A stretch of DNA of 33,107 nucleotides from Nostocales cyanobacterium. Lineage in GTDB: Bacteria; Cyanobacteriota; Cyanobacteriia; Cyanobacteriales; Nostocaceae. The notes beneath the pieces were generated by a model. The model searched no databases and was not told the DNA's origin. It saw only the letters and a list, made by a program, of their open reading frames with translations. The translations under genes were made by a program, and so were the position numbers. The stretch's first letter is position 1. Every line of letters starts with the position of its first letter. Below are positions 2,785 to 23,311 of the stretch, piece by piece. The stretch lies in assembly GCA_004292695.1 (NCBI GenBank), contig RDXV01000040.1, positions 1-33,107 on the forward strand, in the 5' to 3' direction.

Positions 2785-2939
2785 ACCACAATACTTCACT
2801 ATCTGAAAATTATACAATTTAGCTGCTTGACAGCTTATCAGGGTTAATTACTTGCACAAGATTGGAGTTGATACAACGAAAAAATACAAAAAACTCCTTG
2901 ATATCCTTGAACCTCACAACCAAACTTTTTCATTAAAAC

Positions 2940-4946
2940 CTAAATACTATATTTGTCTAACCATAATTTTACAGCAGATTGTAATTTTTCCCTCTCAGAA
3001 TGTTTAATACCTTGAGGATCAAAACGATAGCGATAATGCAATTCAATTAATGATGATAGTTCATCAATTTTATATTTATAATCATCATTTTCTGATAGTT
3101 CTTTTTTAATTCTTGATATCCAGTTTTTTAAGGACTCCCCAGGATAGCGGTTAAACCCTATGTCATTTAATGCTTGTTCTATGAGGTAAATATCAGAGTC
3201 AGTTTTTAAGTTTGTTGATTTTTCGCTGTTGTTTAATATTTTTTGTTGTTTAAATACTCTTTTTACTGCGTTACTAGGTGCAGATTTTCTCAACATGATC
3301 ATAAATATTGGTAGGAGTAACCACCACAGATAGTTTATTAAACCAGTATTTCTTAAATATGTGAAAAATTCAGAAGTTTTAAATCCTATAAATGACCATA
3401 AGTCACCTAGTTTACTAAATTGAGAAATTTGGGCATTTTCTATATTTGTCCAGTCTGGGGGTGTACTATCAAAAGTTTGCCATTTACCATTTATATATAC
3501 CATTGTCCAAGCATGAGCGTGGCGACTACGGACGATATATTGCTGTTCCAAATTACTAAATTCATGAACAGAATAACCAACGGTATAACGTGCAGGAATA
3601 CCTAATGCTCTGAAAATTAATGTGCTTGCAGTTGCAAAATATTCACAATGTCCAGAACGGGTATCTAATAAAAATGTTGATAAAGGTGTAATCTTTGATT
3701 TACTATCTTTTATTTGTAGTGAATATTGATAATTATTGAATAGAAATGAATTTAGGGTTTTTAATATTTCCGGTGTTGTTTGTGTTTGTGTTTTGATATT
3801 CAATTGTCTGATAATTTCATTAATAGCAGGTAATTCTGATGGTGGAATTTGTAGATCAGCTTGAGTAGGTGGACTTTCTAAAGGGAATTGTGGATTGAAT
3901 TTAATTGTATAATCAATATCGTTAACTTTACTCAAAACTTGAACTGTTCCATATTGATTTTTTTGCATTTCTGTCACAGGTAAATCATTAATAGCAAATG
4001 TACCGTTAGCTAATCTTAATACACCTTTTCCATTATTTAAAGTTCCATTAATGGTAATTTGAGAATGATTTGGTTGTGAATTTCCTAAAATCCAATTTTT
4101 ACCGTCGTCTGTAGGTTTAATAGGTTGAAATTGAGAATTAACCGCTACCCAAGAACCAGATTGATATTTATTATAAGTTGCCTCTTGTAATAAGATAGGA
4201 AAATTGCTTTTAGTTGGTAAATTTACCCGGAATACAATATTATTTGATTGTTTTAAAACTCCAATTTCTCCTATGCTAGTTTGTTTATTAACAGTATTTA
4301 TCTCCTGTCCAATTATATCACTAAACCAAGCAACAACTTGATTTTCTAGTTGTAAATGTAGTTGATGGAGTCCCATTTGTCCTACAAAACCCACACTACC
4401 AGCAGTTAATAATAAACATAACCAAATTGCAGGAGAAAAACGCCGAGAACGAAAGTTCCATAATATCAAAGCTGTTAATATAAATAACCCTATATAAAAT
4501 GATATATTTTCTGTATTTGCATTACTCGCAGCTAAAATACAAACAGCAATGTAAGGGTAAGTTAAATTAAGTTTGAATTTATGGCTTTGTTCTCCAGTTT
4601 CTGGATCATGAAATGTGAAAAAAAGTGTAGTTAGACTAATACTATCATTGACACCATAAATCTGAGTCGCTATCAATGGTAAAGATATAATTGGCAACCA
4701 TTGTAAAAGGGTATAAATAACATAAAATGACTTGGTAGAAACCAATAAATAAACAGTCAAAGCTACCAAAATAACTACACATAAATTAGCTATTTTTTTG
4801 ATATCTTCTATAGAAAAATCCCACCGCGACTGGACAAACCGAGAAGATTCTAAAATAATGGCTATAGGTATCGCAAAAATCCATAGTCCAGTTTGCCAAC
4901 CCCAAAATATTAAAGCAGTAGCAATTAGTAAAGGTGGTGTTTTCAT
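2940..4946 (-). CDS. TgpA-like membrane transglutaminase-fold protein
   Basis: A 668-residue protein with the layout of the TgpA/DUF3488 family: several N-terminal membrane helices (about 5-35, 53-70, 73-95, 130-195), a large external region with a transglutaminase-like core (about 390-500), another helix (about 536-553) and a cytoplasmic tail of about 115 residues. The Cys-His-Asp triad is visible: C434 in SGHCEYFATA, H478 in RSRHAHAW and D493 in TFDSTPPDW. The family acts at the envelope as a protease or transamidase; the substrate here is unknown. Its ATG overlaps the TGA of the upstream DUF58 gene by 4 nt (ATGA), which implies translational coupling. MoxR, DUF58 and TgpA-like genes commonly form one cluster, with the MoxR ATPase thought to act as chaperone or activator. 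Confidence 0.9.
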   Translation of the reverse strand: MKTPPLLIATALIFWGWQTGLWIFAIPIAIILESSRFVQSRWDFSIEDIKKIANLCVVILVALTVYLLVSTKSFYVIYTLLQWLPIISLPLIATQIYGVNDSISLTTLFFTFHDPETGEQSHKFKLNLTYPYIAVCILAASNANTENISFYIGLFILTALILWNFRSRRFSPAIWLCLLLTAGSVGFVGQMGLHQLHLQLENQVVAWFSDIIGQEINTVNKQTSIGEIGVLKQSNNIVFRVNLPTKSNFPILLQEATYNKYQSGSWVAVNSQFQPIKPTDDGKNWILGNSQPNHSQITINGTLNNGKGVLRLANGTFAINDLPVTEMQKNQYGTVQVLSKVNDIDYTIKFNPQFPLESPPTQADLQIPPSELPAINEIIRQLNIKTQTQTTPEILKTLNSFLFNNYQYSLQIKDSKSKITPLSTFLLDTRSGHCEYFATASTLIFRALGIPARYTVGYSVHEFSNLEQQYIVRSRHAHAWTMVYINGKWQTFDSTPPDWTNIENAQISQFSKLGDLWSFIGFKTSEFFTYLRNTGLINYLWWLLLPIFMIMLRKSAPSNAVKRVFKQQKILNNSEKSTNLKTDSDIYLIEQALNDIGFNRYPGESLKNWISRIKKELSENDDYKYKIDELSSLIELHYRYRFDPQGIKHSEREKLQSAVKLWLDKYSI

Positions 4947-6301
4947 AACTGCATTAATTCCTGTTGTAAATTGTTAATGTTTAAAATATGAAATCTAGTT
5001 AGATTATATTTGATAAAATCATTTTTTTGTAAATATTCCCAATCATAATTTTGATTGTTTTTCAGAATAAAAACTAAAGTATGTATATTCATCTGTTCGA
5101 GATATTCTATTAATTGTTTCCGCTGTTCATCCCAAGATAAGAATATACAGATACAACCACTTAATTCTGATATTTTTTCTAAAATTACGGGAATTAAAGA
5201 ATCAAAATTTTTATCTCGACAAGCACCCACAGAAGCGAGAATTTCTAACATTTTTTCTGTGTGACTAATTCCTCTCCCAAAGGTAAAACAATATGCTTCA
5301 TTACCGACAAACATTAAGTCTAATAAAGATTCTTGGGTTTGTACATCCGCAGCTAAGGAAGCAGCTAAAGAAGTGGCAACTTCTAAAATTTGACTATATT
5401 TTTCTGGTTGAAAAGTATCTAAAATTAAAGCATGACGTACAAAAAACTCATCTTGTTCTTCTCTGACAATTGGTTTACCAATTTTTGCCCAACTTTTCCA
5501 ATGAATTTTTCTAATAGAGTCACCAGGACGATATTCTCTTAAAGAACGAAATTCTTCTGCATCACCTACCGAAGAAGCTAACGCTACTCCCCCTGATTGA
5601 TATTTTCTAAAACCAGGTAATTGGATGGGTGGAAGTTGATATAATTGGGGGAGAATTAACAAAGATTGGGGTAAGGAAATGGTTTGACAACCGTGAAATA
5701 TTCCTAAAGGAACAGGTCGTGCTATTGTTAAACTTACTAACCGCATTACCCCCCGATGAGTGGGAATTATTTCTCCGATTATTTCCGTTTTTTTGTGTGG
5801 TTTTAGGGGTGGTAGTTCTAAGGTTTTTGCTGTTCCACATTGTTTACGACTAACTAACCATAACCAACGATAAGAACCTAGTTTAATATCTAATTTTGTG
5901 CGTTTATGTTCTTCCGGTTCTGGTGTTTCTATAAATTCTTTGAATGTGGGACGAGGATCGGCGAAATTTTCAAAAAGTTTTAGGTGGGTTTGTGTTTTGT
6001 CGGTTTTATTATCTATGGTAATTTTATATTTTAATTTGACTCCTACGGTAGCAAATTTGGGTAAGGTACGAGTTGCACTAAACCGAGAACGAAAAAACAG
6101 ACTATATATAGTAGAGATGATGAGAATAGATACTAAAAATGTAAATATTTGATATGTCAGGTTTTGGGTTGTATCTATCCCTAAAGCAGCAGCAAATATT
6201 AAACATAAAATGATTGCTAACCCACTGACTGTGATTCTTTTACTCAGTCGGTGTTGAAGTGCTGAACTAAAATGATAGATTTGATAAGTTAGTTTTTGCA
6301 T
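4943..6301 (-). CDS. DUF58 domain-containing protein
   Basis: A 452-residue protein with two N-terminal membrane helices (about 24-42 and 48-70), a beta-rich region, and the DUF58 signature at about 251-283 (FRSLREYRPGDSIRKIHWKS, then KIGKPIVREEQDE). A vWA-like fold begins near HALILDTF (about 290). DUF58 proteins are membrane-anchored partners of MoxR ATPases; no enzymatic activity is established. It is followed by the TgpA-like gene with an ATGA overlap, so the two are one transcription unit. The MoxR gene lies upstream on the same strand, but a DUF4351-type gene sits between them. The start is ATG at 6301, preceded by about 140 nt without a gene. Confidence 0.9.
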   Translation of the reverse strand: MQKLTYQIYHFSSALQHRLSKRITVSGLAIILCLIFAAALGIDTTQNLTYQIFTFLVSILIISTIYSLFFRSRFSATRTLPKFATVGVKLKYKITIDNKTDKTQTHLKLFENFADPRPTFKEFIETPEPEEHKRTKLDIKLGSYRWLWLVSRKQCGTAKTLELPPLKPHKKTEIIGEIIPTHRGVMRLVSLTIARPVPLGIFHGCQTISLPQSLLILPQLYQLPPIQLPGFRKYQSGGVALASSVGDAEEFRSLREYRPGDSIRKIHWKSWAKIGKPIVREEQDEFFVRHALILDTFQPEKYSQILEVATSLAASLAADVQTQESLLDLMFVGNEAYCFTFGRGISHTEKMLEILASVGACRDKNFDSLIPVILEKISELSGCICIFLSWDEQRKQLIEYLEQMNIHTLVFILKNNQNYDWEYLQKNDFIKYNLTRFHILNINNLQQELMQL

Positions 6302-6387
6302 TATGTCATGTATAATAATTTGGGGAAAATAATATGATTATTTTTTGAATGAGTCTGGGTAACTGAATGTTTTTCATTATTGAAAAA

Positions 6388-6414
6388 GTTGGGTTGCGCT
6401 TTGCTTAACCCAAC
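6388..6414. repeat. Dispersed inverted repeat (GTTGGGTT...AACCCAAC)
   Basis: GTTGGGTT (6388-6395) and AACCCAAC (6407-6414) form a perfect 8-bp stem around GCGCTTTGCTT. This matches a repeat I recall as widespread between cyanobacterial genes. It lies between the DUF4351-type gene and the DUF58 gene, both minus strand, so it could separate their transcripts. The stem is seen directly; its spread in the genome is from memory. Confidence 0.65.
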
Positions 6415-6441
6415 CTACGGAATATCTATTATTTACTTAAT

Positions 6442-7380
6442 TTACTGAATGTTCAATCTCGTTAGTAATTGTTCACGAGATAACTGTGATAAGTTGAGTA
6501 ATAAGTCGGTTCTTTCTGTGAGGGAAAGTTCCATGATAGAAGTAACAGCAGTAGATAATTCTGCATCTAAATTACCAAATCTTGCTGTTAATAAACTCTC
6601 TGTAATTAAACGTAATCCCTCTTGTAATCCCTCTTGCAGTCCTTCTTGTTTTCCTTCTTGTTTTCCTATTTCTAAACCTTCTAATCTCCACTCTTCCCGT
6701 TGTTTGAGATATGCTGGTGATAAACTCATGATTAAATCCCTCTCTTCATCGTTGATATTGTTCTTTACTTCTATATTTTTACGCCAAGATGCTAGGATTT
6801 CCACTAGGTAGTTCCATTTATCATCCTCCTTGGAAATTTTTACTAATTCTTCTACTGCGTTAGTTTGGGTTTTCCCTTTTCCTAACACCCTTAACCATAG
6901 TGTAGCTTCATTTTTGGCTAATTGATTGATCACTACTATGGCTGTTTTCTGGGATGTTCCTAAAAAGTACACTCCTTTTTCCCAATCATCTTTTTCTTCT
7001 GCATTAAACCCTTCTAGGATTTTATCTGAACAGGTGGGTGTTAAAATCCATAAAAATGGTAGTTCTTGTTCTGATATTCCCTGTTTTTCCCTCTTTGCTT
7101 GTCTCAATAATTCTTCATGAACGCTGTACAATTTTGACATACAGCTTCTAATTTTCATTTCACTAGGAGGATTGCGAAAAGGTTCAAATAAACAGCTTGT
7201 AACTGCCATTTTTGCTAATAATCCTAAGTCAGTATTTATTGATTGCGAATTGGGAATAAAGAAGAGATCAATTTCTCTAACTTCGCTTTTTACATCTTTA
7301 CCAATTTCTACTGTTCCTAAAGGTTTTAATAATTCCTCTAGATATTCTTTAGCAAATTGATCATGGGCTTCTCTGGTCAT
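6442..7380 (-). CDS. DUF4351 / Rpn-type PD-(D/E)XK-like protein
   Basis: A 312-residue protein with the layout of the large cyanobacterial DUF4351-type family. The N-terminus has EYLEELLKPLG and a nuclease-like EVREIDLFFIP segment, as in Rpn/transposase-like PD-(D/E)XK proteins. A helical middle follows, then a low-complexity linker GKQEGKQEGLQEGLQEG (about 242-258) and a C-terminal helical domain beginning LITESLLTARFGNL. The family is often multicopy and is linked in the literature to recombination-promoting nucleases; catalysis here is not shown. It sits between moxR and DUF58, genes that are normally adjacent, and is flanked on one side by a dispersed repeat. This suggests later insertion. 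The start is ATG 7380, with about 64 nt separating it from the MoxR stop. Confidence 0.75.
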   Translation of the reverse strand: MTREAHDQFAKEYLEELLKPLGTVEIGKDVKSEVREIDLFFIPNSQSINTDLGLLAKMAVTSCLFEPFRNPPSEMKIRSCMSKLYSVHEELLRQAKREKQGISEQELPFLWILTPTCSDKILEGFNAEEKDDWEKGVYFLGTSQKTAIVVINQLAKNEATLWLRVLGKGKTQTNAVEELVKISKEDDKWNYLVEILASWRKNIEVKNNINDEERDLIMSLSPAYLKQREEWRLEGLEIGKQEGKQEGLQEGLQEGLRLITESLLTARFGNLDAELSTAVTSIMELSLTERTDLLLNLSQLSREQLLTRLNIQ

Positions 7381-7444
7381 AAAAATCTAAATTTTGATAG
7401 CTATTTCCTGATTAATTAACTAATGCTAAAAATACAATTCATCA

Positions 7445-8398
7445 TTATATGGGAACAGGTAAAGATTGAATGATTTCTTCTACTACGCTAACTGCGGTTT
7501 TACCAGAAAATCTCGCTTGGGGTTGCATCACTAAACGATGGGCAATTACAAATACTGCTAGTTCTTGAATATTTTCTGGGGTGACAAATTCATAACCATC
7601 AAATAATGCTAGTGCTTGGGCAATTTTCATTAATGTGATAGATGCTCTCGGACTTGCTCCTAATTGTACTCCTTCTGCTGTACGAGTGGCGTTAATAATA
7701 TCAACTAGATAGCGTTTTAATTCTTCGCTAATTCTAATTTTTTTAACTTGTTGTTTTAAGGTAATAATATCTTCTAAAGTGGCACAAGGTTGGATGGTTT
7801 CTAGAGGATGTTGTTGGATTTGATCTGAAAGTAAATTAACTTCTTCTTCTGGGGAAATATAACCTAAACTAAATTGAATGGCAAAGCGATCCATTTGTGC
7901 TTCTGGGAGGGGATAAGTACCGCGAGATTCAACGGGGTTTTGAGTGGCAATTACAAAAAATGGATCTTTTAATTTTCGCAAATTACCATCTACTGTAACT
8001 TGAAATTCTGCCATTGCTTCTAATAATGCTGACTGGGTTCTAGGGGAAGCACGGTTAATTTCATCGGCTAAAACAATGTTGGCAAAAATTGGACCTTCAT
8101 GGAATTTAAAGGTTTGATCGTTGGGGTTTAATATGGAAACTCCTAAAATATCTGAGGGTAATAAATCTGGTGTAAATTGTATTCTTTTAAAGTTTACATC
8201 TATAGAAAATGCTAAGGCTTTGGCTAATGTGGTTTTCCCTGTACCTGGAGAGTCTTCTAATAATATATGTCCACCACTAGCAAAGGCTGCTAATAGTTTT
8301 CTAATGGCTTGTGATTGTCCTTTGATGACTTTTTGAATGTTTTGGGATATTCTCTGATAAATTTCTTGTCCTGATATTTGATTATTTGGGTTTTCCAT
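7445..8398 (-). CDS. MoxR-family AAA+ ATPase
   Basis: A 317-residue AAA_3 ATPase. Walker A is at about 48-56 (EDSPGTGKT), Walker B at about 108-114 (IVLADEI), the sensor-1 asparagine is in ATQNP (about 151-155), and the segment YPLPEAQMDRF carries the likely arginine finger. The C-terminal lid contains GASPRASITL. The length is normal for MoxR. These ATPases work as chaperone-like activators of partners that include DUF58 and transglutaminase-like membrane proteins, both encoded downstream on the same strand. Only the intervening DUF4351-type gene breaks the usual order. It probably starts the cluster: ATG 8398 is preceded by about 190 nt of non-coding sequence before panB, which may hold the promoter. 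Confidence 0.93.
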   Translation of the reverse strand: MENPNNQISGQEIYQRISQNIQKVIKGQSQAIRKLLAAFASGGHILLEDSPGTGKTTLAKALAFSIDVNFKRIQFTPDLLPSDILGVSILNPNDQTFKFHEGPIFANIVLADEINRASPRTQSALLEAMAEFQVTVDGNLRKLKDPFFVIATQNPVESRGTYPLPEAQMDRFAIQFSLGYISPEEEVNLLSDQIQQHPLETIQPCATLEDIITLKQQVKKIRISEELKRYLVDIINATRTAEGVQLGASPRASITLMKIAQALALFDGYEFVTPENIQELAVFVIAHRLVMQPQARFSGKTAVSVVEEIIQSLPVPI

Positions 8399-8588
8399 AG
8401 GTTTTATTAGTGTCTAATTGAACACTAATTATACAGCAGCTATCAGCAGTCAGTTATCAGTTTAAAAATCTTTTTGGTGTAAGGCTTGATAATGTTAATT
8501 TACACTTCATTTACGTCGAATTTGCTTTATCTTTTGCTTTAGATAAAATATGAATTATGGGTTGTTAAAAAAGTCTTTTTTGTTCTAC

Positions 8589-9365
8589 TCACTTTTCTGG
8601 AAACTGACTTTCCCGCACTTCTAAAGCGTAACTTTGCACCGCGTTGGTAATTTGTTCCCGTAAGTTAGTATAAACTTTAGCAAAGGGTGGATGTTTTTCG
8701 GAAAGTCCTAAAATATCAGAAGTTACCAATACTTGACCATCACACTCTGAACCTGCACCGATGCCAATAGTAGGAATACGTAACTTTTGTGTGATTTCTG
8801 ATGCTAACTTTGCGGGAATATGTTCCAAAACCAGGGAAAATACACCGGCTTGTTCTAAGGCGATCGCCTCGTTAAAAATTCTCTCTTGATCTAGCTGAGT
8901 TTTTCCCTGTTGTCTTAAACCCAGTTGATGAATTGACTGCGGTGTTAACCCCACATGACCCATAACAGGTATACCAGCTTGCACTAACCGAGATACGGTT
9001 TCAATCATTGCTGGATAACCACCTTCCAATTTTACCGCCTGTGCGCCGGTTTCTTTAAGTATTCTGCCGGCTGAGTGCATCGCCTGAGAAACACTTTCTT
9101 GATAGGATAAAAATGGTAAATCCACCACCACCAAAGCGCGATTTACACCACGACGCACAGCTTTAGCATGGTGGATCATTTCATCTAAAGTAATTGGTAA
9201 AGTCGTTTCATAACCTAAAACAACCGCCAAAGAATCACCAACTAGAATTAAATCTACACCAGCAGTATCTAAAAGTTGGGCGATCGCATAATCCCAAGCA
9301 GTCAAAGCCACAATTGGCTTTCCCTGTTGTTTCCATTGTATTAATTGCTGGGTAGTAATAGGCAT
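8589..9365 (-). CDS. panB: 3-methyl-2-oxobutanoate hydroxymethyltransferase (PanB)
   Basis: Ketopantoate hydroxymethyltransferase, the first committed step of pantothenate/CoA synthesis: it transfers the hydroxymethyl group of 5,10-methylene-THF to alpha-ketoisovalerate. Hallmarks are [22 protein letters not shown] (with the metal-binding Asp), [28 protein letters not shown] and [16 protein letters not shown]. From ATG 9365 ([10 protein letters not shown]) it is 258 residues, a normal length. The frame is open for five more codons to a TTG at 9380, but that lies in a repeat-rich gap, so the ATG is preferred. No strong Shine-Dalgarno precedes it. Two HIP1 octamers are inside (8860-8867 and 9280-9287). 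Confidence 0.95.
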
Positions 9366-9380
9366 AATAGAGGAGATCAA

Positions 9381-9484
9381 GGAGTCAGGAGTTCTAGGAG
9401 ATCGAGGAGTTCTAGGAGTCAGGAGTCAGGAGTCAGGAGGAGAATATTTATCTTTTACCTTCTGTTCCCTGTTCCCTATTCCCT
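9381..9484. repeat. STRR heptamers between panB and the propeller gene
   Basis: The gap holds two heptamer families. AGGAGTC occurs in three tandem copies (9414-9434) plus scattered variants from 9381. GTTCCCT, GTTCCCT and ATTCCCT follow (9464-9484). The last unit supplies part of the TAG stop codon (9483-9485) of the minus-strand propeller gene. These are STRR-type repeats typical of heterocystous cyanobacteria. Confidence 0.85.
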
Positions 9485-10574
9485 ACTTTACACTGCGACC
9501 AAAGCCAAAATGAGGTCTTGCTTGTTCCATTTTAGGCATTAACCAGGCTAAACCTTCACTTGTTCCTATCCATAATTTATTACCAACATCTGGGGCAATA
9601 GTTAACACCCGACTGGAAGGTAAACCGGCAACTCGATCTAACAAAGCTCCTGTATAGGGATTTAATCTTAACAAACCATTGCTAGTTCCTACCCACACAC
9701 TACCATCTTGGGCAAAACTGATGGAAGTAACATTTTTACCACGTAGGGGAGTTACAGAACGCATAACTATTCCCGTTTTCGGGTTGATCACCAATAACTG
9801 ATTTGGCATTCCTGCCCATATTAACCCTTCTGGACTAATAGTTAAAGCCTGTACCATTCCCCCAGGTAAATTATCTATCCTTTCCATAATTAGTCCATTG
9901 GCAGTATTTACCTTTACCAGTCCATCCAAAGTACCTACCCACAACTGACCATCTGCATCTAAGGTCATGGTATTAGCACTGACACCGGGTAAATTTTTAA
10001 CAGTGGTCATAATTAACCCTTCATCGGGACTGACCAGCACTAAGCCCGCATCTGTGCCAGTCCACAAATAACCTCTTTTATCAACTACCAGTGATAATAC
10101 TCGTTTTGAAGGTAGCAATAAATTCTGTGCTGTAATTTCATTTGTCCGGGGATCTACTCTAGTTAAACCTTGAGAATTACCTACCCATAAACGACCTACC
10201 TTGTCTTGAGCTAATGCGTCAATTATCACATTAGGTAAACTTACACGAGAAATGGTATTACCCGTGTTGGGATCAATGCGAGATAAACCTCGCCAAGATG
10301 CTACCCATAAGTTACCAGTGAAGTCTTTTAATAATTTACTAATTCTATAATCTGTTTCTTCTTGTCTTTCTAATACGTCTCTATCATCTGGTAAGGGATC
10401 TACTCTGGTGGGTGGTGCTGATGCTGGGTAAGTCGCAGCATTATTTTGTTTGACTGTGGGGTTATTTGTGGGGTTATTTTGTCCTAGTGCGGAATTTTCT
10501 ATACAGGGTATAGATATTAACCCCAGTAGGATAGATATGATTAATAAACTAATACGTGTCTGAAATAATACCAT
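9483..10574 (-). CDS. Secreted seven-repeat beta-propeller (Reg_prop/ligand-Gly type)
   Basis: A 363-residue protein with an N-terminal signal peptide or anchor (about 5-30), a Pro/Asn-rich linker and a charged segment, then seven repeats of about 42 residues, each with L/I/V-W-x-G/A-x-x-x-G-L followed by a P-x-T/E-G turn: LWVASWRGLSRIDPNTG, LWVGNSQGLTRVDPRT, LWTGTDAGLVLVSPDEG, LWVGTLDGLVKVNTANG, IWAGMPNQLLVINPKTG, VWVGTSNGLLRLNPYTG and LWIGTSEGLAWLMPK. This matches the two-component-regulator propeller repeat and is the right number to close a seven-bladed ring. There is no histidine kinase or output domain, so it is a free-standing periplasmic or extracytoplasmic propeller. The ligand is unknown. 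It is upstream of panB on the same strand, with STRRs between. Confidence 0.85.
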   Translation of the reverse strand: MVLFQTRISLLIISILLGLISIPCIENSALGQNNPTNNPTVKQNNAATYPASAPPTRVDPLPDDRDVLERQEETDYRISKLLKDFTGNLWVASWRGLSRIDPNTGNTISRVSLPNVIIDALAQDKVGRLWVGNSQGLTRVDPRTNEITAQNLLLPSKRVLSLVVDKRGYLWTGTDAGLVLVSPDEGLIMTTVKNLPGVSANTMTLDADGQLWVGTLDGLVKVNTANGLIMERIDNLPGGMVQALTISPEGLIWAGMPNQLLVINPKTGIVMRSVTPLRGKNVTSISFAQDGSVWVGTSNGLLRLNPYTGALLDRVAGLPSSRVLTIAPDVGNKLWIGTSEGLAWLMPKMEQARPHFGFGRSVK

Positions 10575-10851
10575 AGCTTTATATCCCTTCGAGTATTAAA
10601 GATGATGTTGTAAAAGCGAACGGAATTCGCTACCACACAAGTAAAGTTAACTCCTGTTAAATCATAAAAATCAAGAATTTTTTAGTCACACAATTAACTT
10701 TTTACTCATCAACTTGTGTGTATCGTTTCTGTGTGATTACATCATTGCCAACTGTTACAAATGCGTAAAATTAATTAACAGTAATTTTCCCCTCAATCTA
10801 GCACTTTGCTGATAAATTATACTATTGAAAATTGTTTTGGCAGATTATACC

Positions 10852-13044
10852 ATGCCTCAAATCGAAGATGTTCTTACTCAGCGTATTCCCTTAGCTAATA
10901 AACTTGAACAGGTAATTACACCTAATCTACAAAAGCTATATCAAACAATTAGAACCTTAGAAGTCAATCGGCAAAAACAACTAGCAGAATGTGTTAACGA
11001 ACCGGAAATATTGATAAACCTACAAAATATTGATTTTTCCGAGATTTTAAAGAGAATTGACGAGGAATTAAAGGTATTAGATAAGCTCAGACTGCGTTTT
11101 GCGCGTAAAACTCTGAATATTGGAGTTGTTGGTTTAGCACGTCAAGGTAAAAGTACCCTTTTGCAAATTCTCAGTGGACTCACGGATGCAGAAATACCTA
11201 GTAGTGACAGAATGCCTTGTACCAGTGTACAAAGTAACATCTATCATCAAACGGAAGGCAATACCTACGCTAAAGTTTATTTTCACTCAGAAAGTTCTTT
11301 TTTCAAAGAAGTGATTGCGCCATATTACAAACAATTAAATTTTAGTCCTATCCCTCAAACCCTTGATGATTTTCGTCATCAAAAGTTTCCTGAACCACCA
11401 AAAAATCATGAAAACCCAGCTAAAGCAGAATCTATTTATAAACATTTGCGAGATGACTATTATCAATGTTTAGATCAATATGCTTTGCTCCTTAAACCAG
11501 AACAAAGACAAGAGATAATCAAAAAAGAGCAAATTCAAGAATTTGTTTCTCAAAAATATGATACTCAAGGAAACCCGCTAGTATTTAATCATTTAGTTGT
11601 TAAAAAAGTAGAAATTTTTTGTCACTTTGGAGCGCAAGGTGTAGAAAAAATTGGTTTAGTTGATATGCCTGGTTTGGGTGATACTAGATTAGGTGATGCA
11701 GAACGGATGATTGAAGCTTTGGGAGAAGATGTTGATTTTATTTTGTTTGTGCGTAAACCAGTAAATAGTGGAGACTTTTGGAAAAAAGATGATATAGATT
11801 TATATGATGATGCTTATCAAGCTTTAAAGGAAAAGTTACCACTGAATTTGTGGTCTTTTATGGTATTAAACCACGATGAAACTAACTGGAATCGTTGTCA
11901 AGATTTAAAAAATACTCTTGTTAACCAGCCTATTCGTGTAGGTGGTTGTGTAATTGCTAATTGTAAGAATCCTGAACAAGCTAATCAGCTTTTAGCAACA
12001 GTTGTTGATTATCTAGCCAAGAATATTAATAACTTAGATAGGCAATATGCAGAATCCTGTCAAAAGGTACTAACAGAAATTCAAACTTCCATAGATTCAG
12101 AATTAGAAAAAGCGAGAAAAGTTTTTGGTAAAACCATTAAAATTGAAACTGGGGCTGAAACATTTTTACCACAAGTCCAAAAACTGATAAAAAGTATCAC
12201 CAAGAGTTTAGAAGACTTGCTAGAAACTCTCAGAAAAAAACGTGAAAATGAAGATCAATTTTTTAAAGCACAAGTAGAAACAGTAATTCAATCCTGCAAA
12301 CAGGATACGGGAATTCCATCAATTACGCAAATTGAAGACAGAAATAAAGAAGTCAAAGGTTATGGAACTACCTATGAACAGTATATGAATGAAGTTCGCG
12401 CTCATCTATCACAGAAATTTTTATCTATAGATGATGGGTTGAAAAAATCGGTAGAAGAGTTAAAAAATCAAGTTGCAAATGTACTAATTCAACAAGGAAA
12501 ATTAGGAGCATTAACAGAAAAACAGGGAACAGAATTTTTAAGAACAATAGCGGAAATATTGCCAGATGAAATTATCGGTGGTAAACCCTGTAAAATAAAA
12601 TTTGGTTTTCAGGTTTTAGCTGATTTTGAGCTTTCCTATCGTGGCTTTGTTCAACACCGCATCCGGCAACATTTAGATATTTTGACACCAAATGAAAGTG
12701 AAGTATTACAACTGAGTAAAACTCCTACTGCTCAACAAGTTTTAAATAACCTCAAAACAGCCCATCAAGAAGCTGTATATAAATGTGAAGAATCCCTCAT
12801 GGACTTTTTCAAAGAACCAAATCAAGCGGCTTTTGCCATAGTAGAGGAATTTTTAGATAGAATACTTCGAGCAGAAGATGTAAAAACAGAATGGGAAATA
12901 TTTCTGTTACAATCTCGTGAAAAAATCTGGGAATCTGAATTTCAAGGAAAGCTGATTGAGGAAACTAGAAGAAAAGAATGGCTTGATTTGGTTAAACTGG
13001 TAGAAAATGCCAATCAATCAGAAAAATTGCAAATTTTAAATTAG
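10852..13044 (+). CDS. Dynamin-like large GTPase (first gene of GTPase operon)
   Basis: A 730-residue P-loop GTPase. G1 is GLARQGKST (94-102), a candidate G2 Thr is in PCTSVQ (about 122-127), G3 is DMPGLGD (271-277), and a G4-like VLNHDE is at about 338-343, where His and Glu replace parts of the usual NKxD. About 140 residues separate G2 from G3, more than in simple GTPases. A helical, probably coiled-coil region follows (about 400-730). This resembles dynamin-like or TRAFAC GTPases with a helical stalk, but no transmembrane helix is visible. ATG 10852 is chosen over the TTG at 10825. The next gene starts 21 nt downstream and also encodes a GTPase, so the two probably work together. The specific family was not recognised. 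Confidence 0.75.
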   Translation: MPQIEDVLTQRIPLANKLEQVITPNLQKLYQTIRTLEVNRQKQLAECVNEPEILINLQNIDFSEILKRIDEELKVLDKLRLRFARKTLNIGVVGLARQGKSTLLQILSGLTDAEIPSSDRMPCTSVQSNIYHQTEGNTYAKVYFHSESSFFKEVIAPYYKQLNFSPIPQTLDDFRHQKFPEPPKNHENPAKAESIYKHLRDDYYQCLDQYALLLKPEQRQEIIKKEQIQEFVSQKYDTQGNPLVFNHLVVKKVEIFCHFGAQGVEKIGLVDMPGLGDTRLGDAERMIEALGEDVDFILFVRKPVNSGDFWKKDDIDLYDDAYQALKEKLPLNLWSFMVLNHDETNWNRCQDLKNTLVNQPIRVGGCVIANCKNPEQANQLLATVVDYLAKNINNLDRQYAESCQKVLTEIQTSIDSELEKARKVFGKTIKIETGAETFLPQVQKLIKSITKSLEDLLETLRKKRENEDQFFKAQVETVIQSCKQDTGIPSITQIEDRNKEVKGYGTTYEQYMNEVRAHLSQKFLSIDDGLKKSVEELKNQVANVLIQQGKLGALTEKQGTEFLRTIAEILPDEIIGGKPCKIKFGFQVLADFELSYRGFVQHRIRQHLDILTPNESEVLQLSKTPTAQQVLNNLKTAHQEAVYKCEESLMDFFKEPNQAAFAIVEEFLDRILRAEDVKTEWEIFLLQSREKIWESEFQGKLIEETRRKEWLDLVKLVENANQSEKLQILN

Positions 13045-13065
13045 CACAAATAGGATTTTTTAGAT

Positions 13066-14025
13066 ATGCTCGAATTTGAAGTTTTGATGTTTGGTCCTGC
13101 ATATGTGGGTAAGACAAGTTTATTAAGCTCAATGTACTATGAATATGATCGGGAAATTAATCAAACTAGCATCCAAATCACTCCCGATCCTGAAACTGCA
13201 AGTACAATAGGAGAAAGATTAGGTGAACTTAAAGCTCTCAATGATGAGTTTAAACTAGAGGAAGAATTAAGAGAAGGTGGTATTAACACGACTGGATCAC
13301 CCAGGAAGTTTGTATTTAATATTGGTCGTTTGGGAGAAACTCCAAAGTTGAAGTTAACATTGTGGGATTTTCCTGGTTTCTATCTTGTTAACAATAAAGA
13401 AGGAGAGAAATTTATTACAGAACATCTGAACAAATCTGTAGCTGTTCTAATTGCCGTTGATGCACCAGCACTAATGGAAGCTAGGGGTAAATGGCATTTT
13501 AAGAGAAATAGTCCCATACAAGTAAAATCTTGGCTGCAAAAAGTTTATTCTGGTCTCAATTCAAATCGGTTGGTAATTATTGCCCCCATTAAATGCGAAA
13601 GCTACATGAAAGATGAACAATCTGCCAAGAAATTATTAGCACGTATCAAAGAAGAATACAAAAGTTTACTTCAATTCTTTAAATCTGACAATTTAGCCGA
13701 AAAAGTAGCTGTAGTTGTCACTCCGGTTCAGACTGTAGGTAATGTATTTTTCTCATCTATTCAGGTGAATAATGGTGAACCTAAGTTTATTTTCAAAAAG
13801 CCTGATATTGATGCTGATTATGCACCACAAGATAATGAACAACCGTTGAAGTATCTGTTACGATTCTTGTTAAAAAATTATCTAAAAAAGCGTAATTTTG
13901 GGTGGATAGCTGATACTTTTGGTCAAGATGATTTTCTCTATCAAGCAGTTTATGAATTAGCCAAGGATTGTAAAACAAATAATGGTTTTGAAATTGTACA
14001 AAGCAAAGATTTGTTTTATATGTAG
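13066..14025 (+). CDS. Small TRAFAC-type GTPase (second gene of GTPase operon)
   Basis: A 319-residue GTPase. G1 is GPAYVGKTS (10-18), G3 is WDFPG (100-104), and a G4-like APIKCE is at about 173-178. The beta-strand AVLIAVDAPALMEARG (about 126-141) follows G3. About 80 residues lie between G1 and G3, including a Glu-rich segment (EEELREGG). This looks like the GTPases described from bacterial conflict systems, where two GTPases occur together, but the exact family is not certain. An AGGA at 13052-13055 precedes ATG 13066. It lies 21 nt after the large GTPase and about 19 nt before the membrane-protein gene, so a polycistron is clear. No membrane segment is seen; localisation may come from the third protein. 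Confidence 0.75.
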   Translation: MLEFEVLMFGPAYVGKTSLLSSMYYEYDREINQTSIQITPDPETASTIGERLGELKALNDEFKLEEELREGGINTTGSPRKFVFNIGRLGETPKLKLTLWDFPGFYLVNNKEGEKFITEHLNKSVAVLIAVDAPALMEARGKWHFKRNSPIQVKSWLQKVYSGLNSNRLVIIAPIKCESYMKDEQSAKKLLARIKEEYKSLLQFFKSDNLAEKVAVVVTPVQTVGNVFFSSIQVNNGEPKFIFKKPDIDADYAPQDNEQPLKYLLRFLLKNYLKKRNFGWIADTFGQDDFLYQAVYELAKDCKTNNGFEIVQSKDLFYM

Positions 14026-14044
14026 TCATTTTTAGGAGTTGGTC

Positions 14045-15151
14045 ATGGATATTTATCTTCAAAGTTGTGGACAAAAAGGAACACAGGACTATCGGTGGCT
14101 AAAAATTTATAAAGATAACGAATGGCTAGAGAAGGTTGAACGTCAAGAACCAAAGATAGTAGAAATATCTGAATTTTATACACCAAGCACTCCTGCTGTT
14201 GTTATGTATAGGAAAGAGCAGCAATTAATACTGTTCATTTACTGGCTAAAAACTAAACAACGTTCATTAGATTATGGTCGTCCTGTACAAAATTCTCTGG
14301 TGTTCATAGGAGGAGAAGAAAATGATTGTTTACTTTTTCAAATGTTGGCTAGTAAGGCTTTAGAAGACTGGCAATTATTTGCAGATAACTTTGATAATTG
14401 TGTGCAATGGGGGAATAATGAGTATGGTTTTCAGGTTGAAAAATCTTCATTTGAAAAATTCATTTTTAAGAAAGATGTGGTCAAAGATTATGAACAACTA
14501 AAAACTCCAAATAAAACCAGAAAATTAGCTTGTGATGTACTGAATGTAAAATCAAAATCTCCTGAAAAACAGAAAATTATTCAAGAAACTAAGCAACAGT
14601 GGATAAAAGCACTTGCTGAAGAATTGAAAACAACAAAATTACCAGATAATTGGAAGGGACAATTGGTAGTTGTTGCAGAAAATGTAGCTGAGGAGGTTCT
14701 TCAACATGATGTATGGAGGGGTATATCAGATCGTGTTGCACATAATAACGAGTCTGGAGTTTGGAAAGAAATACAAGAAACACCAGTAGAGGAAATCACA
14801 AAAAAGTATCCGAAGTTAAACTTAATATTGACAGTCATCTTAATCAGTTTTTTAGTCATTTTAGTGGTTTTTTCCCTAAGTCAGAGTCCAAAAAACCCGA
14901 CCCCCCAACCAAAAAGTGAACCGACGATAGTTGAACCAAGTCCAACTCCCACAACCAGTTCTGAACCGGAAATTCAACCGAGTCCAACTCCTACAACCAG
15001 TGCTGAACCAGAAATTAAACCTAACTCTCACCCTGAAAGTCAGTCTTCAACCGAAACTCCAACCCAGTCCGACTCATCAAACCAGGAAATTCCAAAAACA
15101 TCATCTATTCAAGAAGAACAACTTGACAGAGAAAATAATTCACCTACTTGA
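14045..15151 (+). CDS. Single-pass membrane protein with Pro/Ser/Thr-rich tail (third gene of GTPase operon)
   Basis: A 368-residue protein of unknown family. The N-terminal ~250 residues look soluble: first a beta-rich part (about 1-130), then a charged, helical part. One membrane helix follows, LNLILTVILISFLVILVVFSL (about 257-277). The C-terminal ~90 residues are low-complexity Pro/Thr/Ser/Glu with a 14-residue tandem repeat (SPTPTTSSEPEIQP, SPTPTTSAEPEIKP) encoded by a 42-bp DNA duplication starting at 14939 and 14981. The start is ATG 14045, because AGGAG at 14034-14038 is well spaced from it; a TTG two codons earlier is rejected. An in-out topology with a cytoplasmic N-domain would let it tether the two GTPases to the membrane; that is inference. 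Confidence 0.7.
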   Translation: MDIYLQSCGQKGTQDYRWLKIYKDNEWLEKVERQEPKIVEISEFYTPSTPAVVMYRKEQQLILFIYWLKTKQRSLDYGRPVQNSLVFIGGEENDCLLFQMLASKALEDWQLFADNFDNCVQWGNNEYGFQVEKSSFEKFIFKKDVVKDYEQLKTPNKTRKLACDVLNVKSKSPEKQKIIQETKQQWIKALAEELKTTKLPDNWKGQLVVVAENVAEEVLQHDVWRGISDRVAHNNESGVWKEIQETPVEEITKKYPKLNLILTVILISFLVILVVFSLSQSPKNPTPQPKSEPTIVEPSPTPTTSSEPEIQPSPTPTTSAEPEIKPNSHPESQSSTETPTQSDSSNQEIPKTSSIQEEQLDRENNSPT

Positions 15152-15176
15152 ATTATTGGAGTCATATTTGCAAATG

Positions 15177-15225
15177 TGATGGTTAGAGGTAGGGAATGTA
15201 GCCTTTACAACTAACTATCACCTTT
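15177..15225 (+). terminator. Candidate terminator/hairpin after the GTPase operon
   Basis: TGATGGTTAG (15177-15186) can pair with CTAACTATCA (15211-15220) over 10 bp with one G-U pair, and more pairing is possible in the loop (GG..CC). Only a short CCTTTTG follows, so intrinsic termination would be weak. It starts 26 nt after the stop codon of the membrane-protein gene, right after a near-palindrome (15163-15178). Confidence 0.45.
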
Positions 15226-18262: not shown

Positions 18263-18317
18263 AATAAAAGTTAGGATAGTGATCAGAGGTTATTTTTTTT
18301 ATTCTCAGGTGGTAATT

Positions 18318-18542
18318 ATGCAACAAATTACTCTGACTGAAGCATCTCAACACTTATCTGATTTGGTGGAAGCAGCACTTGGTGGCGAGGAAGTTATCAT
18401 TATGAAAGATAATCAACCTGTAATTAAGTTAACTCCTGTGTTACCAGTTAAAGTTCGTCCTAAATTTGGTAGTGCAAAGGGAAAGGTCAAAATGTCTGAC
18501 GATTTTGATGCACCTCTAGAAGAATTTAAGGATTATATGTAA
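18318..18542 (+). CDS. Phd/YefM-type antitoxin
   Basis: A 74-residue antitoxin. The N-terminus MQQITLTEASQHLSDLVEAALGGEEVIIMKDNQPVIKLTPV matches the Phd/YefM fold, which dimerises and binds its own promoter. The C-terminal part (FDAPLEEFKDYM) is acidic and would wrap the toxin. ATG 18318 is chosen because AGGTGG (18307-18312) sits just upstream; a longer frame from 18279 would add a hydrophobic tail with no known counterpart. The stop TAA shares one base with the ATG of the PIN toxin, so translation is coupled. The unit begins just after the RuBisCO terminator. Confidence 0.88.
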   Translation: MQQITLTEASQHLSDLVEAALGGEEVIIMKDNQPVIKLTPVLPVKVRPKFGSAKGKVKMSDDFDAPLEEFKDYM

Positions 18543-18922
18543 TGCAGCAATTACTTGATACTCATACTTTACTTTGGTTTACTGCGGGTGATCCAAGAAT
18601 CAGCGAGAATTTAAGATTACAAATTGAAAATAACGACAACTTTTTGAGTATTGCTAGTGTTTGGGAAATGGCAATCAAACACAGTATAGGTAAACTCAGT
18701 TTAGAGATGAGTTTTGATGATTTTGTCGCACAACAAATTATGGGTAATGGCATTACATTACTGCAAATCAACCAACAACACATTTCCGTTGTTTCCCAAC
18801 TACCCTTACATCACCGTGACCCTTTTGACAGAATGTTAATTGCACAGGCTATAGTGGAAAATATACCTGTGCTAAGTGCTGATACAATTTTTGATGCCTA
18901 TTCAATACAGCGTTTGTGGTGA
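18542..18922 (+). CDS. VapC-type PIN-domain toxin
   Basis: A 126-residue PIN ribonuclease of the VapC group. The acidic metal-binding residues are in place: D6 in LLDTHTLLW, the Glu in SVWEMAIK (about 42), the Asp pair in HRDPFDRML (about 92-96), and the Asp in LSADTIFDAY (about 116). Such toxins cut tRNA or rRNA when their antitoxin is degraded. It overlaps the antitoxin stop by one base (TAATG). A short AT palindrome with a T-run (18941-18959) follows and may end the transcript. Confidence 0.9.
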   Translation: MQQLLDTHTLLWFTAGDPRISENLRLQIENNDNFLSIASVWEMAIKHSIGKLSLEMSFDDFVAQQIMGNGITLLQINQQHISVVSQLPLHHRDPFDRMLIAQAIVENIPVLSADTIFDAYSIQRLW

Positions 18923-19024: not shown

Positions 19025-20458
19025 ATGAGCTATTGTATTAATCCTAACTGTCCCAAACCGCAAAACCCCAAACAATCGTTATTTTGTCAAGCTTGCGGTT
19101 CTGAGTTACTTTTAGAGGGGTGTTATAAAGTCCTTCGTCCTTTAGGGGGTGGTGGTTTTGCTACAACTTATGAGGTGGATGACTCCGGGACTCAAAAAGT
19201 CCTCAAGGTTCTATTTAACACAGATCCTAAAGCGGTGGAACTCTTTCAACAAGAAGCGGAAGTTTTAAAACGACTCAACCATCCCGGTATTCCGAAAGTT
19301 GAATCAGATGGTTATTTTATTTATTGTCCTAGAGATACTAAACAACCTCTACATTGTTTGGTGATGGAAAAAATTGAGGGGATGAATTTAGAAGAATACA
19401 TGACTCAACTTAACCATCAACCTATTAGTGAACGTGCTGCTGTAAGATGGTTAAAACAAATAGCGGAAGTTTTACAACAAGTCCATCAACAAAATTATTT
19501 TCATCGAGATATTAAACCACCTAATATTATGTTACGCCCCAATGGGCAGTTAGTATTAATTGATTTTGGGACAGCAAGAGAAGTTACCCAAACTTTTATG
19601 CAGAAAGTCGCAGGACAGCAAGTTACAGGAATTATTTCCGCAGGTTATACACCATCAGAACAAATCAATGGTAAAGCTGTTCCCCAATCAGATTTTTTTG
19701 CTTTGGGGCGAACTTTTGTTTATTTATTAACTGGTAAATCTCCTGATAAATTTAATGAAGATTCAAGGAATGGAAAGTTAATTTGGCGAGATGATATTAC
19801 AGGTATTTCCCAAAAGTTGTTAGATTTAATTGATTATTTGATATCTCCGTTTCCGGGAAATCGTCCAAAAGATACACAGGAGATTTTGCAAAAATTATCG
19901 GAGTTTGACACTTCTTCACCGGAATTTCAAACCTCTAATTCTTCTAGTCAATCTTCTAATTCTGTTGCTAATGTTCAAACAGTAACATCTACATCTGGCG
20001 CAGTTAATCAAGTAGCAAGTTCCTATACATATCCATTTTGGAGGCGTATTATAGCTTTTATGATTGATTTAGTAATTTCTCTTTTTATTTATTTTATTTT
20101 ATACCAAATAGGAGATAGTCTAGATGACAATCGTGGATACTATGATATTTGTTTTAACCTATCAAAAAATATATCTTTCGGTGGTTCTATTATCTTTAAT
20201 TGGCTTTACTTTGTATTATTGGAAAGTTCTGATAAACAAGCAAGTTTTGGGAAAACTGTAAACGAAATATTTGTCATTGATATGAGTGGAAATAAAATTT
20301 CTTTTTTGCGTGCTACTTGGAGATTGTTGATCAAAATATTATTAATTGTCTATACTTTTGGTTTACTAGATTTAATTTTTGTCCTCTTTCATGAAAAGCA
20401 TCGCTCTTTACATGATATCTTATCTGGTACTGTAGTTATTGAAAAACCATCTCCATAA
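19025..20458 (+). CDS. Ser/Thr protein kinase with zinc ribbon and C-terminal RDD membrane domain
   Basis: A 477-residue fusion. The N-terminus has a zinc ribbon (C4, C9, C21, C24). The kinase domain (about 33-295) has a Gly-rich loop LGGGGFATTYE, catalytic K61 in VLKVLF, HRDIKPPN (160-167), DFGTAR (180-185) and GYTPSEQ in the activation segment, the form common in cyanobacterial Pkn2-type kinases. A Ser/Gln-rich linker (about 296-335) leads to an RDD domain (about 336-475) with RR...D348 in its first helix, four likely membrane helices and HRSLHDILSGT near the end. The kinase would face the cytoplasm, anchored by the RDD part. RDD domains are linked to transport in some proteins; the substrate here is unknown. 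It stands alone between two toxin-antitoxin pairs. Confidence 0.9.
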   Translation: MSYCINPNCPKPQNPKQSLFCQACGSELLLEGCYKVLRPLGGGGFATTYEVDDSGTQKVLKVLFNTDPKAVELFQQEAEVLKRLNHPGIPKVESDGYFIYCPRDTKQPLHCLVMEKIEGMNLEEYMTQLNHQPISERAAVRWLKQIAEVLQQVHQQNYFHRDIKPPNIMLRPNGQLVLIDFGTAREVTQTFMQKVAGQQVTGIISAGYTPSEQINGKAVPQSDFFALGRTFVYLLTGKSPDKFNEDSRNGKLIWRDDITGISQKLLDLIDYLISPFPGNRPKDTQEILQKLSEFDTSSPEFQTSNSSSQSSNSVANVQTVTSTSGAVNQVASSYTYPFWRRIIAFMIDLVISLFIYFILYQIGDSLDDNRGYYDICFNLSKNISFGGSIIFNWLYFVLLESSDKQASFGKTVNEIFVIDMSGNKISFLRATWRLLIKILLIVYTFGLLDLIFVLFHEKHRSLHDILSGTVVIEKPSP

Positions 20459-22168: not shown

Positions 22169-23311
22169 ATGATTGAATTAAACTTGGAAAGTCAAATGAA
22201 CAGTAAAATTCAAGAAGCTGAAAACAAATTTGTTCAACAAATTGAAGAAGCTGAAGAAACTATTTTCTATGAAGATGATTCATATCAAGTCCCACCTGAC
22301 GATTTGATTGCTTATAACGAATTGCGTTCATGTGCCGATCTTTACAGAATGTACAAACAAGGAATTCTGATCATTCAACCTGAATTTCAGAGAGAAGAGG
22401 TTTGGAGAAAAACTGATCAGACTCGATTTATTGATTCACTAATCAAACAATTACCAATACCAAGTATGTGTTTTAGTGTTGATCATAAAACACAAAAATG
22501 GCAAGTTATTGATGGATTACAGAGAATGTCGGCTATTATTCGCTTCTTTTCAGAAGATAGCTGGAAACTGTCTGATTTACCAGACATTGATCCAAAAATA
22601 TCTGGAAAGTACGTTAGAGATTTTCATAATCCCGCTTCCGAGCTTCATGTCTATAATACCAGAATAGAAAATTTAACCCTACCAATTACCGTGTTAAGAT
22701 GTGATTATTCTAAAAAGAGTCATACTAATTATTTATTCACTATTTTTCATAGATTAAACACTGGCGGTATCAAATTAAATAATCAGGAAATTAGAAACTG
22801 CATATATCATGGCAGATTGAATAAGAGATTGAAAGAAATGGATGAATATTCTGCATGGATTAATTTAAATCAAAAACAGGGAAGAAAAAAACATCGTTTT
22901 ACTACTGTAGAGATTATTTTAAGATTTTTTGCGTTTTATGATGACTATAAAAAATATAATGGTAGACTTGCAAAATTTTTGAATGACTACATGGAAAAGA
23001 ATAAAAATTTAGGTGAAAGCCAGTTAGATGAAAAAGAAAAGATATTTAAAATGACAGTTGATATAGTGAATGAGCATATCACAGAATTAACTCAGCGTAA
23101 AAGTATAGCTGTGCTTGAATCCGTTATGTTTGGCATTGCATATAACTTAAATAAAATTAAATTAATGAAAAGCGAAGACATTAGTAGTTTATTGAATAGA
23201 CTACTGCAACATAGTAGCTTATCTCCTCAAGTTATGAAAGAGGATCTTGCTTCTAAGGATAAAGTATTATCGCGCCTTAATGCTGCTAAAGATATTTTTT
23301 CTGGATTGTAA
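22169..23311 (+). CDS. DUF262 (GmrS-like) protein of a two-gene module with HEPN
   Basis: A 380-residue DUF262-family protein. Signature segments are PEFQREEVWR (71-80), VIDGLQRMSAIIRFF (113-127, the DGQQR-type motif of the ParB/Srx-related NTPase or nuclease fold) and FHRLNTGGIKLNNQEIRNC (about 194-212). The C-terminal ~150 residues are helical. GmrS-type subunits act in modification-dependent restriction, and DUF262 proteins occur in several defence systems. No HNH (DUF1524) domain follows here; instead a HEPN protein is encoded 6 nt downstream. ATG 22169 gives the longest protein; ATG 22196 with GGAAAG at 22186-22191 is an equally good start. Composition is AT-rich with many AAA and ATT codons, unlike the RuBisCO genes, which may reflect transfer. 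Confidence 0.85.
   Translation: MIELNLESQMNSKIQEAENKFVQQIEEAEETIFYEDDSYQVPPDDLIAYNELRSCADLYRMYKQGILIIQPEFQREEVWRKTDQTRFIDSLIKQLPIPSMCFSVDHKTQKWQVIDGLQRMSAIIRFFSEDSWKLSDLPDIDPKISGKYVRDFHNPASELHVYNTRIENLTLPITVLRCDYSKKSHTNYLFTIFHRLNTGGIKLNNQEIRNCIYHGRLNKRLKEMDEYSAWINLNQKQGRKKHRFTTVEIILRFFAFYDDYKKYNGRLAKFLNDYMEKNKNLGESQLDEKEKIFKMTVDIVNEHITELTQRKSIAVLESVMFGIAYNLNKIKLMKSEDISSLLNRLLQHSSLSPQVMKEDLASKDKVLSRLNAAKDIFSGL

Follow-up and report, generated by a model that had tools for sequence, protein, structure and literature searches.

A widespread mobile three-gene module linking a dynamin-like protein, a DO-GTPase-related GTPase and a membrane-anchored protein in cyanobacteria

DO-GTPases are defined by a Walker B glutamate and are paired with GAP1 proteins, in systems described as almost wholly missing from cyanobacteria; two paralogous GTPase copies are present in 38% of the published cases, and kinase, Hsp70, von Willebrand factor A (vWA) and envelope-binding parts are listed for the GAP1-N2 systems, there together with GAP1 (PMC7159879). 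DO-GTPases have been predicted in membrane-stress (psp) operons too (PMC11237479). Cyanobacterial dynamin-like proteins have conserved gene neighbours, nearly all of them carry a NALL extension of the P-loop, and those of the HSR1 clade are followed by a gene for an HSR1-type GTP-binding protein, for which a regulatory role was suggested (PMC5827413). The dynamin DynA helps against phage (PMC8844932), and elsewhere dynamins are listed with the defence systems (PMC12629846). As for GTPase regulators, the longin-DENN proteins include folliculin, FNIP and NPR2/3, and longins relate to the roadblock protein MglB at DALI Z-scores of 4.5–5.2 (PMC3521125). Here we analyse three adjacent genes, A, B and C, of a Nostocales cyanobacterium (assembly GCA_004292695.1), which encode a dynamin-like protein, a small GTPase and a single-pass membrane protein. 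They lie in contig RDXV01000040.1, whose whole length of 33,107 nucleotides (nt) is called the window below; the window is one complete contig of a 5.39-Mb genome in 324 contigs.

Our analysis confirms a widespread mobile three-gene module, a variant of GTPase-centred systems, that is undescribed as such in the papers searched: the best-matching open-access entries on dynamins with conflict systems, DO-GTPases, longins, LeoABC and cyanobacterial operons do not describe the three-gene set. The chances seem to us evenly balanced that it works as a membrane-tethered module in which C gates B and B licenses A at the membrane, probably in defence or under envelope stress.

Conservation of the three-gene set

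The genes are consecutive on the + strand: A (10852..13044, 730 amino acids (aa) from ATG, with an in-frame TTG at 10825), B (13066..14025, 319 aa) and C (14045..15151, 368 aa from ATG, with a TTG at 14039). The intergenic distances are 21 nt between A and B, and 13 or 19 nt between B and C, depending on the start. The initial annotation had seen here three tightly packed genes, including two GTPases and a single-pass membrane protein, and the open reading frames (ORFs), the gaps of 13–21 nt, the GTPase motifs and the transmembrane (TM) segment all bear this out.

We searched 243 genomes, evenly drawn from the same order as the source, with A, B and C. Matches were found in 95 genomes for A and in 75 each for B and C; all three were present in 74, and every B-carrying genome had an A match. 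Fisher tests gave p <1e-40 for each gene pair, a value in which kinship among the 243 genomes overstates independence. Of 86 places with B (three secondary fragments excluded), 78 have A at most 2 kb upstream and 82 have C at most 2 kb downstream. The 74 places with both leave 12 without the full set, at least four of which are at contig ends. Among 40 neighbourhoods that were read, 39 had an ORF call for B, and 34 of these showed the order A-B-C. No fourth gene is shared, the commonest other neighbour cluster being found in seven of the 40 loci shown (window included). The evolutionary distances of the three proteins are also correlated, with r of 0.76 for A-B (27 loci), 0.59 for B-C (29 loci) and 0.65 for A-C (26 loci), none of which was reached in 2000 permutations each. 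Because so many genomes share all three genes and most B places keep their order and adjacency, A-B-C is one self-contained module and not a product of chance. The initial annotation had treated the three genes as one set, a view that would have been refuted by homologues rarely found together or by a match to a known housekeeping system; the neighbourhood survey found the homologues almost always together, and Pfam, NCBIfam and PDB sequence searches gave no such housekeeping match.

Two observations weigh against a strictly fixed trio. In four loci (L082, L084, L085 and L089) B and C are present and no A lies upstream, so that A may not be obligatory, and 20 of the 243 genomes have an A match without B, although 14 of these matches cover only part of the profile. 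The set can also be enlarged: two Calothrix loci (L095, 6971–12069, and L100, 4281–9253) have A-B-C-C-C-B arrays, in which three C genes that differ in their tails stand in tandem and B is present twice.

A scan that reached beyond the order, with each species represented by a single genome, gave at least 31 loci, and the order A-B-C was recognized in 21 of the 31 listed. From their record titles we take 27 of these 31 to be cyanobacterial. Full sets were found in a Thiotrichaceae genome (L087), in Pseudonocardia (L092, C at E 3e-6) and in Nonomuraea (L197), the last in a record that is listed as a plasmid yet is 11.9 Mb long. Riflebacteria (L102) have A, B and a downstream gene that by eye begins like C, and in Larkinella (L097) A and B are present. 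Among 229 genomes of the class to which the Thiotrichaceae genome belongs, five had a B match at E<=0.001; two of the matches are strong, and one of these comes from the Thiotrichaceae genome. Of 247 genomes in Larkinella's class, four matched B, the single strong match being Larkinella itself. Thus the module seems rare outside cyanobacteria. PF20013 (GAP1-N2) was found in none of the four non-cyanobacterial genomes reached via the loci.

The three proteins

Gene A is a dynamin-like protein, as judged from its profile matches and predicted structure, and so the initial reading of A as a dynamin-like GTPase stands. Pfam Dynamin_N matches the window's A at E 1.5e-6 (28.8 bits, against a curated cut-off of 27) and 28 of 29 A family members at E<=0.1 (best 5e-11). 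The AlphaFold2 model has a mean predicted local distance difference test score (pLDDT) of 87, and its N- and C-terminal helices join one bundle, matching the overall dynamin fold. Foldseek placed SynDLP first (E 4e-13) and BDLP next, and VIA-align gave Z 23.6 with mitofusin-1 (5yew; root-mean-square deviation (rmsd) 3.9 over 340 residues between 2 and 730), Z 21.8 with SynDLP (9em9; rmsd 7.7, 384 residues) and Z 15.0 with BDLP (2j68; rmsd 7.5, 334 residues). The P-loop GLARQGKS (11131..11154, +) follows GxxxQGKS in 28 of 29 alignment rows, with GKAREGKS in the remaining one, and the G3 motif DMPG (11662..11673, +; DMPGLGD in the window) follows DxPGxG in all 29. These two motifs are intact, and of the G4 region only LN or FN is kept in the rows shown. 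The P-loop continues as GKSTLLQIL, without the NALL extension that PMC5827413 gives for cyanobacterial members. No TM segment was recognized in A, in which no stretch exceeds a mean hydropathy of 1.05. The PADLOC profiles matched 17 of 29 family members as LeoBC (best 2.5e-12) and five as LeoA; on the window's own A the LeoBC match is weak (E 1e-4) and falls in two stretches, the best at 381–550, outside the GTPase domain; the weakness of this match is one of the points against the mechanism proposed below.

Gene B is, from its family's profile matches, a relative of the DO-GTPases, a small TRAFAC-type GTPase, and because the Walker B glutamate is found in just seven of 32 rows we have not filed it as a member. 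At E<=0.1, 31 of the 32 members of the B family match Pfam DO-GTPase2 (best 3e-11), seven match DO-GTPase1 and 21 match MMR_HSR1 (best 2.6e-4). The window's own B has only weak small-GTPase matches and matches neither DO-GTPase1 nor DO-GTPase2, even at E<=1. In the order as a whole, the DO-GTPase2 profile had matches in 96 of 243 genomes, 82 above the cut-off, including places outside the B search list. In the family alignment the P-loop is GPAYVGKT (13093..13116, +) and G3 is DFPG (13366..13377, +). The residue after DxxG, the position of the Walker B glutamate as set by eye from GTPases adjoining GAP1-N2 in two loci, is phenylalanine in the window. G4 is degenerate across the family: the G4-like APIKCE (13582..13599, +), with K-x-E replacing K-x-D, reads AP[VI][KR]CE in 30 of 32 rows and VPVRCE or VPLKCE in the other two. 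No zinc ribbon was seen ahead of the P-loop in the alignment. Paralogous pairs of GTPases, a theme of DO-GTPase systems, are not present in the window, which has a single B; two copies exist in L095 and L100 among the at least 31 loci, and a tandem B pair in the Thiotrichaceae genome. The initial comparison with the GTPases of predicted conflict systems is supported by the relatives of B, which match the DO-GTPase2 family of such systems.

Gene C diverges fastest from the window's copy, at 18–35% identity as against 36–53% for B and 38–51% for A. In its AlphaFold2 model 177 of 368 residues reach a pLDDT of at least 90, followed by a TM helix and a disordered tail. The model has a predicted longin-like N-terminal domain (residues 1–122; 14045..14410, +), with strands at 2–7, 17–21, 51–57, 60–74 and 80–89 and helices at 92–107 and 109–117, and a second small alpha/beta part (residues 178–227; 14576..14725, +). 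The TM helix (residues 258–278; 14816..14878, +) reaches a mean hydropathy of 3.2, and a TM segment was predicted in 32 of 36 family rows. The tail (14879..15148, +) is about 90 aa long, rich in Pro, Thr, Ser and Glu, and predicted to be disordered, with pLDDT mostly <50. Across the family the TM segment is followed by short tails, Pro-rich stretches, WD40 repeats (two of 36) or PG_binding_1 domains (L095 and L100, Calothrix). Because peptidoglycan-binding domains stand at the same place in these two Calothrix relatives, the tail suggests itself as lying outside the membrane. The membrane protein with an external Pro/Thr tail proposed initially is therefore reproduced by computation for the one TM segment and the tail, and its external side is made probable by these relatives.

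The soluble part of the C model weakly resembles longin-domain GTPase regulators. The top 11 rows of the structural comparison are entries of the folliculin-FNIP2 complex, SEDL, GATOR1 complexes, the Lst4 longin domain and DENND10, at Z 3.4–4.5, the matched chains being taken as longin subunits from entry titles, lengths and ranges. SEDL and DENND10 also count as longin proteins. The longin-like reading is made because one functional class occupies all of the top rows, and several results weigh against it. The best Z is 4.5 and none reaches 5, and such low scores may reflect just a shared arrangement. Of the longin order of elements (beta-beta-alpha-three beta-alpha-alpha), the long helix alpha-1 is shrunk to a short turn in the model. 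Lower structural rows mix TM-helix, further DENN and CPLANE, TagF, fluorescent-protein, GAF and LOV entries; Foldseek gave E no better than 4e-3, with mostly fluorescent proteins from rank 3 onward (E around 0.05 or worse), and nothing in PDB sequences was better than E 0.29. In the window's C no match of weight was found, and an Actin_micro match (E 0.017) was discarded as chance.

These properties bear on a possible kinship with the DO-GTPase/GAP1 conflict systems, of which the module might be a cyanobacterial branch, with C a very divergent GAP1 and the dynamin-like A standing where tubulin-domain proteins, Hsp70 or kinases stand elsewhere. Besides the DO-GTPase2 matches of B relatives, such a branch would explain several themes in common with PMC7159879, namely the downstream third component, the C-terminal TM segment with envelope-binding domains, and the vWA, kinase and Hsp70 genes. 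In the longin-like N-terminal domain the family consensus of C includes R-x-D-x-x-x-R-x-I-R-N-S, read as R-S-L-D-Y-G-R-P-V-Q-N-S in the window, and by eye a D-x-x-x-R or D-x-x-G-R motif between two strands has a similar position in C, in GAP1-N2 (L113–L116, L150–L178) and in TagF (L179–L191), although profile comparison is not significant. Hhalign comparison of C with four, and then 32, GAP1-N2 rows lacked significance, and against the 32 rows the score was reached by 12 of 40 shuffled profiles. Kinship with TagF was likewise discarded, ten TagF_N rows giving no significance and six of 40 shuffles reaching the score. The window's C had no Pfam GAP1 match at E<=1, nor did the 36 family members among the best 25 of 91 families. 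With the Walker B glutamate scarce in B and no zinc ribbon before its P-loop, we regard such a branch as a doubtful explanation. As for the adaptor of the conflict systems named initially, C shows a weak structural resemblance to GTPase partners and no GAP1-N2 profile match.

Insertion site, mobility and variable parts

The module lies between a propeller gene and rbcL, which is 0.68 kb downstream and is the single RuBisCO_large match (PF00016) in this genome. The propeller gene was matched in 29 of 40 relatives (weak matches and the source genome of the window being counted too), and the stretch around it was read in 20. A, B and C are missing from all 20 stretches at E<=1e-6. In 18 of them rbcL is also present, at 0.67–1.2 kb from the propeller gene in 16, versus 5.26 kb in the window. 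A relative of the same genus (L130) aligns to the window up to 10590 and resumes at 15224, and a second relative (L131) aligns up to 10593 and resumes at 15206. A stretch of about 4.6 kb that contains the module (approximately 10591..15205, no strand assigned) is thus missing from relatives at this site. The simplest reading of these alignments would be a gain of the module here as a unit, loss in the relatives being the alternative. The propeller-rbcL gap may be an insertion hot spot. In L132 (4288–8175) and L135 (5080–9409) this gap is filled by other, unrelated ORFs. A function linked to Rubisco was considered and rejected, since in the relatives rbcL is present while the module is missing, and at other sites the module stands next to other genes. 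Because the flanking genes differ elsewhere, the adjacency to rbcL is incidental, an insertion site in this genome.

Plasmid records contain A in ten cases and B in three, and a conjugative plasmid of Aulosira carries A, B and C. The window itself contains other genes of note. Past the rbcL cluster, a Phd/YefM-type antitoxin gene is followed by a PIN-domain gene (18279–18922), a protein kinase is fused to an RDD domain (19025–20458), and a GmrSD_N restriction-type gene (22169–23311, E 4e-24) is a further defence-like gene. On the other side, transglutaminase-core, DUF58 and MoxR-type AAA genes are consecutive on the – strand (2940–8398), with one matchless gene interposed.

Several loci vary the parts of the module. 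In L065 a CHAT protease domain (E 1e-12) replaces the GTPase domain of the A homologue, and in L069 and L101 the A homologues have AAA_35 and HEPN_Swt1 at the N terminus. In L089 (Pseudanabaena) B is fused to a protein kinase and adjoins a kinase-Hsp70 gene. The wider locus (1041–12896) contains coiled-coil genes (by eye), the kinase-Hsp70 fusion, the kinase-B fusion, C, and a further kinase and FHA-like gene (by eye), and no A was seen in it. C is followed by vWA-like genes in L058 and L069, where the Pfam matches fall just below the cut-offs, and inspection by eye suggests the same for L054, L065 and L085. On the L192 plasmid, A adjoins a DO-GTPase-like gene of another kind, at 24.8 bits, below the cut-off of 27. 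On the Nostoc plasmid pNsp_h (L196, 3119–8631), an A homologue lies next to a divergent operon with one DO-GTPase-like gene above the Pfam cut-off. A second DO-GTPase-like gene there was recognized only by the B profile (E 0.002), and we regard this locus as another arrangement of the same parts. Because in some lineages other effector domains are added to A or stand in for part of it, the CHAT and STAND-like plus HEPN variation in these sequences points to a conflict or cell-arrest system.

Against a role in defence it must be said that such effector fusions are few, that B was found in none of 50,697 phage records, and that no B in viral contigs was confirmed. DO-GTPases in membrane-stress operons (PMC11237479) would fit a stress function equally well, and this is one of the arguments for membrane maintenance, in which A would repair or remodel the plasma or thylakoid membrane under stress, with B as its regulator and C as a receptor. 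The top Foldseek matches of A, SynDLP and BDLP, are consistent with maintenance, as are the role generally proposed for cyanobacterial dynamin-like proteins and the HSR1 clade with its putative regulatory GTP-binding neighbour (PMC5827413). However, the patchy presence of B in the order, the absence from this site in a same-genus relative, the plasmid carriage and the CHAT, HEPN and STAND-like fusions fit an accessory system better, and we consider maintenance unlikely. A selfish or addiction module, in which the genes travel together and one is toxic unless restrained by the others, would account for the mobility and plasmid carriage and for a stretch that weakly resembles HicA at the C-terminal end of a single C (L063, E 0.005, below cut-off). 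We hold it very improbable, since the proteins are large, GTPase-rich and keep their switch motifs, and the Pfam scans gave no recognisable antitoxin (best 25 families listed in the family scans).

Proposed mechanism and relation to known systems

For the membrane-tethered module in which C gates B and B licenses A, the following course can be envisaged. The single TM helix would anchor C in the membrane, with the longin-like domain binding B in the cytoplasm, and the variable outer tail of C would sense or contact the cell envelope. When infection or envelope damage perturbs C, B would change its nucleotide state and would then recruit or license A, which might assemble on the membrane and seal, contain or break it. 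The membrane-tethered GTPase cascade that the initial annotation thought plausible stays a proposal, in which the binding of C to B, the signal from B to A, the sensing by the tail and the defence role are inferred. A bolder formulation, which we put forward only tentatively, is that the module may be a bacterial counterpart of the eukaryotic logic of regulator, Rab/Rag and dynamin: a membrane-anchored longin/DENN-like regulator would act on a small GTPase that deploys a dynamin, giving an inducible response to phage or envelope damage with swappable effectors (dynamin, CHAT, STAND-HEPN).

If the gating of A by C and B is correct, dynamin-like proteins would join the predicted GTPase-centred conflict systems, such systems would be common in cyanobacteria after all, and a group of cyanobacterial dynamin-like proteins lacking an assigned role would gain a partner and a likely trigger. 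It would also provide a bacterial longin-like GTPase partner outside the MglB type. Since the three genes are adjacent, the whole block can be deleted or transferred at once, which makes its function directly testable.

Four groups of known systems may be compared with the module. Like the bacterial dynamin-like proteins SynDLP, BDLP, IniA and LeoA, A has a dynamin GTPase domain with helical parts at both termini that can be aligned to structures of the family; unlike them, it is coupled to a small GTPase and a membrane protein predicted to be longin-like. In the HSR1 clade, as in A-B, a GTP-binding gene comes after a dynamin-like gene, whereas the section on this clade in PMC5827413 names no third gene or membrane protein. 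The HSR1 pair and the A-B pair could be identical or distinct. MglA-MglB and the eukaryotic Rag/Rab GTPases with longin or DENN regulators (folliculin, GATOR1, DENND10, SEDL) also combine a small GTPase with a longin/roadblock-type partner, and the C model matches these entries best, with Z up to 4.5 only. In contrast to those regulators, C is itself membrane-anchored and is genetically linked to a dynamin-like protein.

The DO-GTPase/GAP1 systems (PMC7159879) share with the module a small TRAFAC-type GTPase, related in our case to DO-GTPase2, a third component encoded downstream, TM segments with envelope-binding tails, vWA, kinase and Hsp70 genes in some loci, and mobile neighbourhoods. They differ in that C has no sequence link to GAP1-N2, that B has neither a conserved Walker B glutamate nor a visible zinc ribbon, and that the usual partner here is a dynamin-like protein; the word dynamin does not occur in the main text of PMC7159879. 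Furthermore, the DO-GTPase/GAP1 systems are near-missing from cyanobacteria (PMC7159879), whereas A-B-C is mostly a cyanobacterial module.

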